This document shows positions 6,654 through 38,931 of a DNA stretch of 64,000 nt, one piece after another. How positions within the stretch are numbered: position 1 is the stretch's first letter; each line of letters opens with the position of its first letter. This DNA is from Ilumatobacteraceae bacterium (GTDB taxonomy: Bacteria; Actinomycetota; Acidimicrobiia; Acidimicrobiales; Ilumatobacteraceae). The DNA is taken from positions 1,823,595 through 1,887,594 of the forward strand of contig JAWPMO010000001.1 in the NCBI GenBank assembly GCA_033344875.1, given 5' to 3'. The notes under the pieces are model-generated. The model saw only the letters and a list, made by a program, of their open reading frames with translations, did not search any database and was not told where the DNA came from. A program made the position numbers and the translations under genes.

Positions 6654-8431
6654 CCGAACAGCCCGCCGAGTGGCGGGAGCGGCAACGTGATCTCCGGCGT
6701 CGTCAGGTCGGGGACCGTCAGGAGCGGGGTCGAGACGGGCGGCGTGGTGATCGACGGTGTGGTGATCGGGGGTGTGGTGATCGACGGAACCGCGATCGGC
6801 GGTGTCGTCACCAGCGGCGTGGAGATCGACGGAACCGTGAGCTCTGGCGTGCTGACCGACGGCACCACCGTCACGGACGGCACGGTCACGGACGGCACGG
6901 TCACGGACGGCACGGTCACGGACGGCACGGTCACGGACGGCACGGTCACGGACGGCACGGTCGTCGCCGGCACCGTGGTGGTGGGAATCGGACCCGACGG
7001 AACCGTCGTCGCCGGCACGACCACCGGCGGCACGGTCACCGGCGGGACCGTCACCGGCGGGACGGTCGTGCCGGACGGTCCGACCACCGGCGGATCCGTT
7101 GGCGCGACCTCGGTCGGATCGGCCGTCGGCCCGGTCGTCGGCGCGGTCGACGTCGTCGGTGGCGGCACGGAGGGATCGGCCGCCGGGATGGTCGACGTCG
7201 GCACGCGGACGTCCGCAGGTGCGGTCGACGCGGTGGCACCGCCCGCGTCGGGCTCGGCCACCATCTCGACGGCAGCGATCTGTCCGTTGGAGAACGCCTG
7301 GAGCTCCGAGGCGAACGCGGCCCGGCGGGCGGAGCTATCGTCGCCGAGGCCGAGCAGGGCGGCGGTCGTGAACGCGGCGGTGCCGACCACCCCGGCGACG
7401 GGCGTGGCGCCGACGGCGACCGCGCCACGGACCACCGGGATCTCGGTCAGCCACGCCAGCGAGCCGATCGCCGGGCGGCGACCGATCGAAGCGGCGAGCA
7501 TCGCACGGACCACGACCGGGTCGAACTGCGTTCCCGAGCAGTCGACCAGCTCCTGACGTGCGGCCTCGGCCGACATCGGCTCCTTGTACGAGCGCTTCGA
7601 CGTGATCACGTCGTAGGCATCGGCGACCGCGGTGATGCGACCGGCGAGCGAGATCTCGTGCTCGTGCAGCCCGTCGGGATAGCCGCGGCCGTCCCATCGT
7701 TCGTGGTGCTCGCCCGCAGCGCGCACCCAGTCACCCAGCCACGGCTCCAGGGGTCGCAGCATCTCGGCGCCGGCCGCCGGGTGGTTCTTGAGCACCTGCC
7801 ACTCGTCGTCGGTCAGCTTCTCCGCCTTGTTGAGTACCTCCGGCGGCACCGTCATCTTGCCGACGTCGTGCAGCAGGACGCCCCAGGCGAGCCAGTTGCG
7901 ATCGGACTCGGAGAGCCCCATCTCATCGGCGATCAGATCCGCGTAGGCGCGCACTCGTTCGGTGTGCCCACGGGTGAGCCGGTCGTGCCGACCGAGGCCG
8001 TTCACGAGCACGATCGCGTTCTCGGCCGCTTCGGCGGCGGTGGCGCCGAGCCCGTGCTGTTCGAGTTCTCGAGCCCGCTGACGCATCTGGCGGACGGTCC
8101 CCGAGCGCAGCGCGACACCGAATCGCGACGGCGCCTGGTCGGGGAAGATCAGCGTGAGCCGCAGCAGCGTCGCCAGCGGGAGGAGGCGCCTCGTCACGCG
8201 CCCGACGGCATTCGAGACCACGGCTCCGACGACGCCGGCCTGCAGGATCCACAGTGCGAGTCCCCACCAGCCGTCGGGCCGGTACAACCGGGACCCGACG
8301 AGCCGAATCGCGAGGTACGCGGCGAGCACCGGCGTGGCGAAGGCCACGAAACGGACGCCGAGCGCCAGCGCGGGCGATGCGCGCCACGCCGTGTTCGGTT
8401 CCGTCGCCCCGCGAGTGGGCCCCGCACTCAT
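6650..8431 (-). CDS. Membrane HD-GYP phosphodiesterase with VPT-rich tail
   Basis: 593 aa. Two hydrophobic N-terminal segments (about 25-45 and 55-75) precede a complete HD-GYP domain at about 150-320: RGHTERVRAY, LLHDVGKMTVP, NHPAAGAEML, GEHHERWDGRGYPDG and DAYDVITSKRSY. This family hydrolyses cyclic di-GMP. A further hydrophobic stretch at about 325-360 leads to a ~200-residue Val/Pro/Thr/Ser tail, including six perfect TVPSV repeats. The tail probably lies outside the membrane, although that is inference. It follows pcrA with a 93-bp gap. Confidence 0.92.
   Translation of the reverse strand: MSAGPTRGATEPNTAWRASPALALGVRFVAFATPVLAAYLAIRLVGSRLYRPDGWWGLALWILQAGVVGAVVSNAVGRVTRRLLPLATLLRLTLIFPDQAPSRFGVALRSGTVRQMRQRARELEQHGLGATAAEAAENAIVLVNGLGRHDRLTRGHTERVRAYADLIADEMGLSESDRNWLAWGVLLHDVGKMTVPPEVLNKAEKLTDDEWQVLKNHPAAGAEMLRPLEPWLGDWVRAAGEHHERWDGRGYPDGLHEHEISLAGRITAVADAYDVITSKRSYKEPMSAEAARQELVDCSGTQFDPVVVRAMLAASIGRRPAIGSLAWLTEIPVVRGAVAVGATPVAGVVGTAAFTTAALLGLGDDSSARRAAFASELQAFSNGQIAAVEMVAEPDAGGATASTAPADVRVPTSTIPAADPSVPPPTTSTAPTTGPTADPTEVAPTDPPVVGPSGTTVPPVTVPPVTVPPVVVPATTVPSGPIPTTTVPATTVPSVTVPSVTVPSVTVPSVTVPSVTVPSVTVVPSVSTPELTVPSISTPLVTTPPIAVPSITTPPITTPSITTPPVSTPLLTVPDLTTPEITLPLPPLGGLFG
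6871..6960. repeat. Six perfect 15-bp tandem repeats (TVPSV codons)
   Basis: Six exact copies of TCACGGACGGCACGG, in register with the reading frame of the HD-GYP gene on the opposite strand, each adding one TVPSV unit. Perfect copies imply recent expansion or slippage, so copy number may vary between strains without breaking the frame. Confidence 0.97.
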
Positions 8432-33595: not shown

Positions 33596-34414
33596 TCAGC
33601 CCTTGCCCGACTTGCCCTTGCCTGAGCTCTTCGACGCCGCACGCTCCGACTTCTCGGCGGCCCGGTCGGCCTTGCGTTCGGCATGCTCGGCGTCGCGGAC
33701 GTCCTTCCACTCGGCCTTGCCGTCGTGGTGCAGTTGCTTGAGTTCAGCCTGCATCGCCGCGCACTGGGGTGAGCGCTCGTCGCCGTCGCCGCAGGCCGCG
33801 ACGTAGGCATCCTTCGCGTCGTGCCAGGTTGCCTTGGCGTCGTCTCGAACGTCCTTCCAGCCGGCCTCGTCGTCGGCGCCTTCGACCTCCTCGGTGGCGT
33901 CGTCGTCGTCGACGGCGTCGTCGGTCGCGTCATCGCCGCACTTGGCGAGATACGGCGCCAGGTCGTCGTCGAGGCTCGGTGCGGACGGATCGACGTCGCC
34001 CCGTGCCACCGCCGCGGTCGCCTGACCCTTCTCGCAGCCGATCAAGTCCGTGGTCTTCGTGAACTCGGACACGACCGCGCCGTGTGTCTCGCCCGCGCCC
34101 GACTGCTCGTCGCTGCTCTGCTCACCAGATTCCTCACCGGAGCCCTGCTCACCGGACTGCTCGTCACTGCCCTGCTCACCGGACTGCTCGTCGCTACCCT
34201 GCTCATCGGACTGCTCGTCGCTGCCCTGCTCACCCGATTCCTCGTCGGAGCCCTCGCCGGTCATCTCGGCCGTCTCCTCCTGGGCGACGTTCGAGAGCGA
34301 CGGCATCTCGGCGCCGGCGGCCGCGGCCGCACCGACCCCCATCGTCGCGACGGCCGCACCGAGTGCGACCTTGCCGGCCAGGGTCTTTGCGAGCGTGGTG
34401 AACAGAGGAATCAT
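33596..34414 (-). CDS. Secreted/anchored acidic repeat protein
   Basis: 272 aa. A signal-like hydrophobic N-terminus (TLAKTLAGKVALGAAVATMG) is followed by an acidic Gln/Ser/Glu/Gly repeat (units like GSDEQSGEQ) at about 55-105. A middle part has two Cys (LIGCEKGQ, YLAKCGDD), then charged helices with WKDVRDDAKATWHDAK and WKDVRDAEHAERKAD, and a Lys-rich end. I know no family for it. The acid block next to a basic tail suggests an extracellular polyampholyte, perhaps wall-associated. Start ATG 34414 has GAAAGG 9 bases upstream. Confidence 0.78.
   Translation of the reverse strand: MIPLFTTLAKTLAGKVALGAAVATMGVGAAAAAGAEMPSLSNVAQEETAEMTGEGSDEESGEQGSDEQSDEQGSDEQSGEQGSDEQSGEQGSGEESGEQSSDEQSGAGETHGAVVSEFTKTTDLIGCEKGQATAAVARGDVDPSAPSLDDDLAPYLAKCGDDATDDAVDDDDATEEVEGADDEAGWKDVRDDAKATWHDAKDAYVAACGDGDERSPQCAAMQAELKQLHHDGKAEWKDVRDAEHAERKADRAAEKSERAASKSSGKGKSGKG
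34105..34255. repeat. ~27-bp imperfect tandem repeats within the acidic protein gene
   Basis: Repeated blocks of CCTGCTCACCGGACTGCTCG type (minus-strand codons for DEQSGEQGS), with a few substitutions between copies. They encode the acidic low-complexity part of the protein and could vary in number. Confidence 0.7.
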
Positions 34415-36502: not shown

Positions 36503-37195
36503 ATGCCACGGCAGCAGCACGACGCGTCGAGCGTCGAGAACGAGACGGCACGCCGGCCCCTGACGCCGAAGCGCGTCATCGCCGGTGCCGTTGCGCTCGC
36601 TGACGAGATCGGCATCGATGCGCTGACGATCCGGCGCCTGGCCGAAGCGCTCGACGTGAAGCCGATGGCGATCTACCACCACGTCGCCAACAAGGAGGCG
36701 ATCATCGACGGGATGGTCGACCACGTCTTCGCGGAGATCGAACTGCCACCCACCGATCTCGACTGGCGGTCCGCCATCATCGTGAGGTCGCATTCGATGC
36801 GCCGGGCGCTCGCCCGGCATCCGTGGGCGTCCCCGTTGATGGAGACCCGCACCACGCCGGGCAGGGCGACGCTCCGCCACCACGACGCGGTGGTCGGCTG
36901 CTTCCGGAACGCCGGGTTCTCGCTCGGGCTCACCGGCCATGCCTACGCCGTCCTCGACGCGTTCCTGTACGGGTTCGCCCTCCAGGAGGCGTCGCTGCCG
37001 GCGACCGGCGGCGAGGAGATGAGCGAACTCGCGGGGTCGATCGCCGAGGCGATGCCGGCCGATCTGTTCCCGCACCTCACCGAGTTCACGATCGGTCACG
37101 TGCTCCAGCCGGGGTACGACTTCGGCGACGAGTTCGAGTTCGGACTCGGCCTCGTCCTCGACGGCCTCGAGCGCGCCGCAGCCGACGAACGCTGA
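36503..37195 (+). CDS. TetR-family regulator (TetR_C_1 type)
   Basis: 230 aa. HTH: VIAGAVALADEIGIDALTIR, RLAEALDVKPMAIYHHVANK (recognition helix with YHHVANKEAIIDGMVD). The C-terminal domain has WRSAIIVRSHSMRRALARHPWA and FLYGFALQEASLP, as in TetR(B)-like TetR_C_1 domains. GGGAGAG sits four bases before ATG 36503. The most likely target is itself and possibly the upstream MFS exporter. Confidence 0.9.
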   Translation: MPRQQHDASSVENETARRPLTPKRVIAGAVALADEIGIDALTIRRLAEALDVKPMAIYHHVANKEAIIDGMVDHVFAEIELPPTDLDWRSAIIVRSHSMRRALARHPWASPLMETRTTPGRATLRHHDAVVGCFRNAGFSLGLTGHAYAVLDAFLYGFALQEASLPATGGEEMSELAGSIAEAMPADLFPHLTEFTIGHVLQPGYDFGDEFEFGLGLVLDGLERAAADER

Positions 37196-37214: not shown

Positions 37215-37763
37215 TCAGCAGTCGACGTCGAACGTGGCGCCGATCTCGTCGCCGTAGGGACGGTTCGGCCCGATCGGCTTGAGCGTCACGGTGCCGGACA
37301 CGTTGCCACCGTCGACGGTCGCCACCAGCACTTCGCTCCCCTCGGTGTACAGCAGCCCGGCGTTCTTGCCCTCGTCGTCGAACTCGCCCTCGAGCACGGA
37401 GGTGTCGATGACCGAGTCCTCGTCGAAGCCGGCACGGATCAGCTGCACGGTGAATTCGCCGTCGGACGTGCGCCCGAACAGGTCGAAGCCGTCCTCGATC
37501 AAGAACCCCGCGGCACCGTTCTCCGAGGTCTCACACGTCGTCATCTCGAGCGTGAAGGCGGTCCCGTCGTCGAGGGTCAGCGTTCCGGTGCGCGAGCCCG
37601 TCGCCGGCTCGTCGGCCGGAGCGGCATCAGCCGTGTCAGCGCTGTCGGCGCTGCCGTCGGTGTTGGCAGCCGACTCGCCCGACGCCCCGTTGTCGTCGCT
37701 GGAGCCGCACGCGGTCACCCCCAGGAGCACCGCCGAGATGAACAGGGTACGAACCTTCGCCAT
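37215..37763 (-). CDS. Hypothetical lipoprotein
   Basis: 182 aa. The signal peptide MAKVRTLFISAVLLGVTACG ends in a lipobox (GVTAC), so Cys 19 should be lipidated. An Ala/Asp/Ser linker to about residue 55 is followed by a beta-rich domain (TGTLTLDDGTAFTLEMTTC, GRTSDGEFTVQLI, NVSGTVTLKPIG) with two further Cys. Function unknown. It is divergent from the LuxR gene; the 118-bp gap holds a palindrome and direct repeats. Confidence 0.82.
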   Translation of the reverse strand: MAKVRTLFISAVLLGVTACGSSDDNGASGESAANTDGSADSADTADAAPADEPATGSRTGTLTLDDGTAFTLEMTTCETSENGAAGFLIEDGFDLFGRTSDGEFTVQLIRAGFDEDSVIDTSVLEGEFDDEGKNAGLLYTEGSEVLVATVDGGNVSGTVTLKPIGPNRPYGDEIGATFDVDC

Positions 37764-37799
37764 CTCATCAGGCTGCACGCGGTCTGCGCCATGCGGCAA

Positions 37800-37815
37800 T
37801 ACGTCGTTCGACGTA
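37800..37815. promoter_or_regulatory. Perfect palindrome TACGTCG-TT-CGACGTA
   Basis: Seven-base arms with a two-base centre lie between the lipoprotein gene and the direct repeats in front of the LuxR gene. LuxR-type regulators bind such 16-20-bp palindromes; the assignment to the neighbouring LuxR protein is inference. Confidence 0.55.
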
Positions 37816-37820
37816 ACAGT

Positions 37821-37868
37821 ACGAGGGCAGCACAGCACGAGGGCAGCACAGTACGAGGGCAGCACAGT
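37821..37868. repeat. Three 16-bp direct repeats before the LuxR gene
   Basis: Units ACGAGGGCAGCACAGC, then ACGAGGGCAGCACAGT twice, in strict 16-bp period, with a broken fourth start (ACGATCG) that forms the -10 box. They occupy the expected -35 and upstream activator region. Confidence 0.85.
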
Positions 37869-37873
37869 ACGAT
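37868..37873 (+). promoter_or_regulatory. Probable -10 box of the LuxR gene
   Basis: TACGAT (TANNNT) begins at the end of the third direct repeat and ends 8 nt before GTG 37882. There is no Shine-Dalgarno sequence, consistent with a leaderless transcript. Confidence 0.45.
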
Positions 37874-37881
37874 CGCTGCCG

Positions 37882-38931
37882 GTGGTGCTCGACGAACGCG
37901 ATGTCCATGCGGTCCTCGAGATTGCGGCCGCGTTGGCGACCGACCCTGCACCCGACGTCGAGGCCGTGCTCGAACTCCTCGTCACGCTGATCCCCTCCGA
38001 CGGTGCCTCGTTCAACGACATGACCCTGGCGACGGGCGACTTCCGCCACGTCATGTTCCCGCCGGACGACGAACCGCTCGCGGCCTCCCTCCGGCCGATC
38101 TACGACCGGCTGGCCCATCAGCACCCGTTGATCCTTGCCGCGCAGCAGCAGGCGGGGATCGGGGCGATCCGGTTCTGCGACGTACCGGGCGGCGACGATC
38201 TCACCGACACCGACATCTACCGCGAGTTCTTCGAGCCGTTCGGTGTCCGATACCAGCTCGCCATCCGCCTCCCGTCGCCCCCCGACGTGATCGTCGGACC
38301 GGCGCTCAATCGGAGCGAGGCGCTCGGCGAGTTCAGCGACCGCGACGTCGCGGCCATGAATGCCCTGGCGCCGCACCTCGCGATGCACCACCGCCACATG
38401 GTCGATCGTGAGCGGGCCAGCGCCATGGCCGTCGAGACCGACCGGGAAGGCGGGTGGACCGTGTTGACGGTGCGCTCCGACGGCGTCGTCGAAGCCTCGT
38501 CGTCGCAATCGGCCGCCGCGGCGTTCGCTCGCGACGGGCGCATTCCCGCCGAGGTGGTCGCGCTCCTCCCCCGCTACGGCGACCTGTTCGACAACACGCA
38601 CAGCCACGACGTCACGGTCGACGGCGAGCGCTGGCGGTGCGCGGTGCAGCCGGTCCCGGTCGGGCCGACGGTGCTGCTGATCCGACGGCTGGGCGAGGAG
38701 CCCGCCGCGGCGACGCCGCTGATCGATCTCGGGCTCACGCCCCGTCAGTCCGATGTGGCGATCGCTCTGGCACGGACCGGAGGGACGAACTCGCAGCTGG
38801 CACGGTCGCTCGACATCTCCGAGGGCACCGTGAAGAAGCACCTCGAGACGGTGTTCCGAGTGCTCCGGGTCGACAGCCGCGCCGCCGCGGTCGTCGCGCT
38901 GCGATCGATCACGGGCGCCGCCACCCCCTGA
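37882..38931 (+). CDS. LuxR-family transcriptional regulator
   Basis: 349 aa. The first ~170 residues look GAF-like (VLELLVTLIPSDGASFNDMTL, YREFFEPFGVRYQLAIRLPS). The C-terminus is a LuxR HTH: LTPRQSDVAIALARTGGTNSQ, then LARSLDISEGTVKKHLETV, the GerE recognition helix. GTG 37882 or 37885 is the start; no ATG is in frame nearby. The promoter lies next to a palindrome and three 16-bp repeats. The ligand is unknown. Confidence 0.88.
   Translation: MVLDERDVHAVLEIAAALATDPAPDVEAVLELLVTLIPSDGASFNDMTLATGDFRHVMFPPDDEPLAASLRPIYDRLAHQHPLILAAQQQAGIGAIRFCDVPGGDDLTDTDIYREFFEPFGVRYQLAIRLPSPPDVIVGPALNRSEALGEFSDRDVAAMNALAPHLAMHHRHMVDRERASAMAVETDREGGWTVLTVRSDGVVEASSSQSAAAAFARDGRIPAEVVALLPRYGDLFDNTHSHDVTVDGERWRCAVQPVPVGPTVLLIRRLGEEPAAATPLIDLGLTPRQSDVAIALARTGGTNSQLARSLDISEGTVKKHLETVFRVLRVDSRAAAVVALRSITGAATP

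Follow-up and report, generated by a model that had tools for sequence, protein, structure and literature searches.

A conserved palindrome as candidate shared operator of divergent luxR and lipoprotein genes in an Ilumatobacteraceae bacterium, and a promoter tandem repeat that may uncouple it from luxR

Background

NarL has an HTH of the GerE type, and its consensus heptamer is TACYYMT. Passages of PMC7419079 on E. coli ogt and yeaR describe NarL sites of the 7-2-7 kind (i.e. inverted 7-base elements that lie 2 bp apart), and at ogt NarL activates from such a site at -44.5, where it abuts the -35. In Actinobacteria, a TANNNT box some 10 bp upstream of the start codon marks leaderless genes, according to the portions of PMC3160421 and PMC3898074 that deal with them. 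Tandem repeats that vary in copy number are present in the promoters of dop, lpdA and cysG of M. tuberculosis, as stated in part of the text of PMC12817950.

The locus described here lies in a window of 64,000 nucleotides (the whole stretch of DNA that was analysed), in which a palindrome and a tandem array separate a lipoprotein gene from a divergent gene for a LuxR-family regulator. As in the NarL sites of the PMC7419079 passages, the palindrome consists of inverted 7-base elements 2 bp apart with TAC...GTA ends and, as at ogt, its centre would lie at about -44.5, abutting a (putative) -35. However, its core is TACGTC and not the NarL heptamer, it serves a divergent two-gene layout, and the regulator combines a GAF/autoinducer-like and PAS-like sensor part with the HTH, without a receiver domain. 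With the quorum-sensing regulators LuxR, LasR, RhlR and VqsR it shares the C-terminal GerE HTH, as well as an N-terminal part that superposes on VqsR, but it differs from the lux-box regulators in an additional PAS-like segment between the N-terminal part and the HTH, and in the 16-bp site. The TANNNT at about 10 bp before the start is as in the leaderless genes covered by the portions of PMC3160421 and PMC3898074 mentioned above, the start sites here being predicted. The array resembles those of lpdA and cysG in being a tandem amplification just upstream of (predicted) leaderless promoters in an actinobacterium; compared with what that part of PMC12817950 gives for M. tuberculosis, its unit is shorter (16 bp versus 54-58 bp), it lies between a conserved site and the promoter belonging to it, and it is known from one genome.

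A description of this LuxR-lipoprotein pair was not found among the titles and abstract openings listed by the literature searches. As far as the literature was searched, each ingredient is known, and what appears to be new is their combination, i.e. an operator shared by two leaderless promoters (both predicted), one arm of which has been displaced by a promoter tandem repeat.

The divergent gap and its tandem array

The features of the locus, in window coordinates, are the following.

37215..37763, minus strand: lipoprotein gene, 182 aa, lipobox VTAC
37770..37775, minus strand: putative lipoprotein -10, CAGCCT (NANNNT), 6 nt before the ATG
37794..37799, minus strand: putative lipoprotein -35, TTGCCG, next to the palindrome, with an 18-bp spacer to the -10
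37800..37815, no strand: palindrome TACGTCG-TT-CGACGTA, proposed LuxR operator (form common to the loci: TACGTC-N4-GRCGTA)
37816..37831, plus strand: tandem unit 1, ACAGTACGAGGGCAGC
37832..37847, plus strand: tandem unit 2, one mismatch
37848..37863, plus strand: tandem unit 3, identical to unit 1
37864..37879, plus strand: degenerate unit 4, 13/16 matching, holding the TACGAT box
37868..37873, plus strand: sole TANNNT (-10-like, TACGAT) in the stretch from the palindrome to luxR, at a distance of 8 nt from the GTG
37882..38931, plus strand: LuxR-family regulator, 349 aa, start GTG

The two coding sequences are 118 bp apart, and the sequence-only reading, which had placed a palindrome and 16-bp repeats in this divergent gap, is borne out by the CDS coordinates and by repeat detection. 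Its count of three repeats running into the -10 box needs to be amended: the three units are confirmed, but a fourth, degenerate one went uncounted, and it is this unit that holds the -10-like TACGAT. TRF describes the array (37816-37872, adjoining the palindrome) as 3.6 head-to-tail copies of a 16-bp period with a score of 107. Since these copies lie in a putative promoter and the last of them contains the TANNNT, the array would be a promoter tandem repeat. In 1000 dinucleotide shuffles, the gap never gave a tandem score above 11, against the 35 of the array, which is therefore not a product of chance. In the 464 kb of this genome that were sampled with TRF (20 stretches of 20 kb plus the window), it is the highest-scoring array with a period that is not a multiple of 3, one of three such rows with a score of at least 80, while the other rows at that score have periods divisible by three and fit protein-coding repeats. 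A dispersed family of the 16-bp unit was considered and rejected, the genome-wide excess being modest at most (25 matches when up to 2 mismatches are allowed, including the 3 that are this array, versus 13 for the reversed control). One further exact copy of the unit, with ~0.005 expected, occurs at G000:C1:2602869-2602884 (L004 1501-1516).

The reading frame of luxR is open upstream through the array to 37279 (37279-38931), so that a gene caller could overextend the LuxR protein; the LuxR orthologues align from the GTG/ATG starts that are used here. A general sigma-70 promoter and terminator scan gave no predictions.

Orthologous loci

Relatives were sought with the LuxR protein in overlapping sets of genomes, 221 from the family and 397 from the order (E cut-off of 1e-20 for both) and 395 from the class (1e-25), and the species-genome collection was also scanned once, using alignment A1. 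This yielded 12 orthologous loci with promoter sequence, with LuxR proteins that are 50-66% identical (one a fragment): Ilumatobacter nonamiensis, an Ilumatobacter MAG, two other Acidimicrobiia MAGs, a Nocardioides MAG, two Demequina, four Salinibacterium and a Schumannella MAG. The four Salinibacterium are not independent of each other. Together with the window, the set comprises 13 loci (window, L072-L082 and L084). L037/L039, L054, L010 and L058 (genomes G111, G385, G007 and G317) duplicate L072, L073, L074 and L084 and were counted once, some of the proteins in the alignments being taken from these duplicates. Excluded were L083 and L055, where a contig edge leaves just the 3' part of the gene, and L086-L097, where the match is confined to the HTH end. 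The luxR start codons of the MO_167 and Nocardioides loci were chosen by hand. A search with a Salinibacterium protein against 346 genomes drawn from the phylum (E up to 1e-40) returned only the window's own gene, and none of 39 candidate stretches for viral relatives was confirmed.

Conservation of the palindrome

The palindrome is a perfect 7-2-7 inverted repeat (two 7-bp elements, 2 bp apart), but a perfect arm of 7 bp was also found in 52 of 1000 dinucleotide shuffles of the gap, which makes it marginal against chance when taken by itself. Therefore, the case for the palindrome rests on its conservation. It is found as TACGTC-N4-GRCGTA with 0-3 mismatches in all 12 orthologous loci, each time beside a divergent lipoprotein gene, with 3-6 of its 6 outer pairs kept. 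When the window 16-mer is aligned on the site with the 12 relatives, a mean of 13.2 of 16 positions match, a figure that is favoured by picking the site as the best match to TACGTC-N4-GRCGTA, with shuffles serving as the control; at the tested offsets of 20 to 44 bp on either side the match is 3.2-6.8/16, and once the array begins it drops to 3.2-5.0/16. When the same 110 bp were subjected to mononucleotide shuffling, the observed match was reached in 0-11 of 1000 cases for 11 relatives. The Nocardioides site is weak, with 3 mismatches and 69 of 1000 shuffles as good.

The distance from the palindrome centre to the lipoprotein ATG, which played no part in finding the site, is 43-45 bp in 12 of the 13 loci and 79 bp in Nocardioides; some loci have several in-frame lipoprotein starts, and there the ATG nearest to 43-45 bp was taken. 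On the other side, the centre lies 24-33 bp from the luxR start in the 12 relatives, close to the luxR -10 in each, versus 74 bp in the window.

In this genome, the bare palindrome pattern occurs at one place without mismatches and at 11 other places with one mismatch, the total of 19 rows (including the two of the window) showing no excess over the 21 of the reversed control. An earlier, stricter pattern gave two places at one mismatch, and the two one-mismatch places that were inspected (L035 and L036) both lie inside long reading frames. A longer palindrome consensus matched one site without mismatches and six with 3, versus none in the control. A regulon of the palindrome in this genome was considered as well, but there is no sign of one, as one-mismatch sites are no commoner than in the reversed control. 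A single zero-mismatch copy would be what is expected of a local operator.

The lipoprotein partners

The divergent frame begins with a signal and a lipobox cysteine in all 12 relatives, as judged from translations; the lipobox pattern was run on nine of the 12 and on the window. The lipoprotein of the window is homologous to its counterpart in I. nonamiensis and in one Acidimicrobiales MAG, and other lipoproteins occupy the other loci. Ten representatives fall into two groups and three singletons (BLASTP, E 0.01), with no matches between these five, and the distance of 43-45 bp from ATG to palindrome holds in four of the five. Between the two main groups hhalign gives a probability of 90.3%, but this alignment consists largely of the signal and a low-complexity linker. 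The predicted fold of the lipoprotein was unusable (mean pLDDT of 40.3). It would seem that the cassette is a fixed regulatory one, in which the lipoprotein partner is exchanged and the geometry of the promoter is not. The lipoproteins of L073, L074 and L075 differ from those of L072, L084 and L076-L082, and the ATG lies at 43-45 bp in all of these except L075.

The LuxR protein and its distant homologues

The LuxR protein contains a GerE HTH (PF00196) at residues 285-338, scoring 38.2 bits against a cut-off of 23.5. Its N-terminal part superposes on the ligand-binding domain of VqsR (Z of 15.9, 3.2 A over 161 residues), and the structural matches of this fold comprise VqsR and CviR as well as phytochrome GAF domains. 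The middle segment looks PAS-like, going by the order of strands and helices. No autoinducer-domain family was found in the protein with Pfam at E up to 0.001, and scans with Pfam and NCBIfam gave no specific family model for this LuxR subfamily.

Long matches below about 40% identity (29-38%) were regarded as distant homologues; they make up 17 rows on 16 contigs, L067 and L085 being on the same one. Upstream of luxR, four of the 17 rows (two congener pairs) carry the palindrome with zero mismatches, a match that none of 200 shuffles reached in any of them. Another five (L059-L063), from a second LuxR subgroup, have a related form, TACGC-N6-GCGT(A/T), which was defined after inspection and hence carries less weight. 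The site was found in none of a further 7 rows (6 of the 16 contigs). The remaining row, the luxR paralogue of this genome (L018, region of G000:C1:2807542), carries the degenerate GACGC-N6-GCGTA. The distance from the centre of the related palindrome to the start of a divergent protein, which looks secreted, is 43-44 bp in L059, L060 and L062. Upstream of the paralogue, ~80 bp before its start, there is a long inverted repeat with 13-bp arms, CGCGAGTTGTGCC, and a 1-bp spacer.

Two predicted leaderless promoters

All 12 loci that have the ATG 43-45 bp from the palindrome centre contain a NANNNT 6-7 nt before that ATG (positions chosen after inspection; the background for two positions is 6.2%), and because of this the lipoprotein mRNA is probably leaderless. 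At the Nocardioides ATG that was used there is no NANNNT. In 8 of the 13 loci a TTGC abuts the palindrome, which, taken as a -35, would leave a spacer of 17-18 bp to the NANNNT. Between the palindrome and the luxR start, all 13 loci contain exactly one TANNNT, 5-10 nt before the start, and in the window it lies 8 nt before the GTG, from which a luxR mRNA that is nearly leaderless is predicted.

If the start codons are counted as +1, the centre of the proposed operator is at -43.5 to -45.5 for the lipoprotein gene (-44.5 in the window), and for luxR at about -24 to -33 in the relatives and about -74.5 in the window. A site within a core promoter normally represses, and a site that lies 24-33 bp from the start, inside the luxR core promoter of the relatives, suggests autorepression. 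Since -74.5 coincides with neither -67.5 nor -77.5, positions that are active for NarL, activation from upstream is not implied in the window.

Origin of the array

The expectation that the repeats would be kept in relatives with the same gene order did not hold, the array being absent from all 12 relatives with this divergent layout (gap tandem score of 4-6, versus 35 in the window). As the palindrome is kept in these relatives and the repeats are absent, the two do not form one conserved regulatory unit. The proposal of a switch for both genes, operated by LuxR, accordingly stands in part: comparison upholds it for the palindrome (12/12 loci; 43-45 bp in 12 of 13), but not for the repeats.

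The array would appear to be derived, with the -10 region amplified later on in this lineage. From palindrome to TANNNT there are 4-6 bp in Acidimicrobiia and Nocardioides and 10 bp in Demequina, Salinibacterium and Schumannella; in the window there are 52 bp, which become 4 when three units (48 bp) are subtracted. The same subtraction brings the distance from centre to luxR start from 74 to 26 bp, within the 24-33 of the relatives. Unit 4, TACGATCGCTGCC, resembles the single copy TACGATCACTTCC of the Acidimicrobiales MAG ANT-92, and it has the final T of the box, which is missing in units 1-3 (TACGAG or CACGAG). This unit is probably closest to the ancestral single copy, because the spacing between its TACGAT and the luxR start agrees with that of the relatives. 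The simplest history we infer is that a single ancestral -10 segment was duplicated and then re-amplified by slippage.

Proposed mechanism and alternatives

We consider it reasonably probable, judging by the comparison of loci, that the palindrome is a LuxR operator serving both genes, and that the derived promoter tandem repeat uncouples this operator from luxR. The LuxR protein would be the likeliest binder of the palindrome, because this genome gives no indication of a regulon, the site has persisted despite differing lipoproteins, and it also occurs upstream of some distant homologues. A LuxR dimer would bind the 7-2-7 palindrome beside its own gene, where it would abut the -35 of the leaderless lipoprotein gene (centre at about -44.5) and activate it. 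In the relatives, with its centre at about -24 to -33, the same bound dimer would occupy the core promoter of luxR, likewise leaderless, and repress this gene, the outcome being a self-limiting regulator that is paired with a divergent lipoprotein. In the present lineage, the 16-bp stretch spanning the luxR -10 appears to have been tandemly amplified by about three units (48 bp), which would place the operator at about -74.5 from the luxR start while leaving the lipoprotein arm as it was. Autorepression of luxR was probably lost or weakened by this displacement.

Whether it is LuxR that binds the palindrome could be questioned, as the TetR gene at 36503-37195 adjoins the lipoprotein gene and the operator might belong to its product or to another regulator, such as a global factor. 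This seems rather improbable, because in other orders, too, the site is found beside the LuxR orthologue, where the lipoproteins are unrelated; in addition, it recurs upstream of some luxR homologues that are more distant, and this genome contains it without mismatches only once. It is similarly improbable that the 16-bp units are themselves iteron-like binding sites of LuxR or another factor, through which luxR is controlled cooperatively. The units are nearly identical, three of the four share the TACG of the palindrome arm, and the exact copy at G000:C1:2602869 is in excess of what is expected; on the other hand, none of the 12 relatives has the array and the near matches in the genome (25, including the 3 of the array) are to be compared with the 13 of the control.

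A less remote alternative, although still a doubtful one, is that the array is a neutral product, that luxR uses the -10 of the last unit, and that the operator still acts on luxR or never did. Slippage products are common in non-coding DNA, and the TANNNT and the luxR start codon are intact, but the insertion breaks a spacing of 24-33 bp that is kept in 12 relatives. An assembly artefact is very improbable, since the units are not all identical (1 base is different in unit 2, and 3 bases are in unit 4) and the genome is a single contig of 4.97 Mb with 99.65% completeness.

Beyond the uncoupling that we favour, the array may also act as a slippage-prone dial, in which units of 16 bp, each equal to 1.5 helical turns, would be gained or lost and the operator would thereby enter or leave the core promoter of luxR; we regard this as unlikely. 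If true, luxR would switch between a self-repressed and a freely expressed state with the lipoprotein promoter remaining fixed, i.e. it would be a phase variation of a regulator via the spacing of operator and promoter in a divergent promoter. What the analysis yields for this LuxR subfamily, which is found in several actinobacterial orders, is a predicted DNA site together with two predicted promoters. The window would be a natural experiment on the effect of operator spacing on autoregulation, which is directly testable where one arm of the operator that the two genes would share is displaced by 48 bp.

Other features of the window

Directly 3' of luxR lies a gene for an Rrf2-family regulator (PF02082, 39038-39469), which is followed by a copper-oxidase-like reading frame, judged as such from its translation alone. 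Further strong tandem arrays of the window, at 6866-7067 (periods 15/45) and 34101-34254 (period 27), are probably protein repeats, since their periods are multiples of three.
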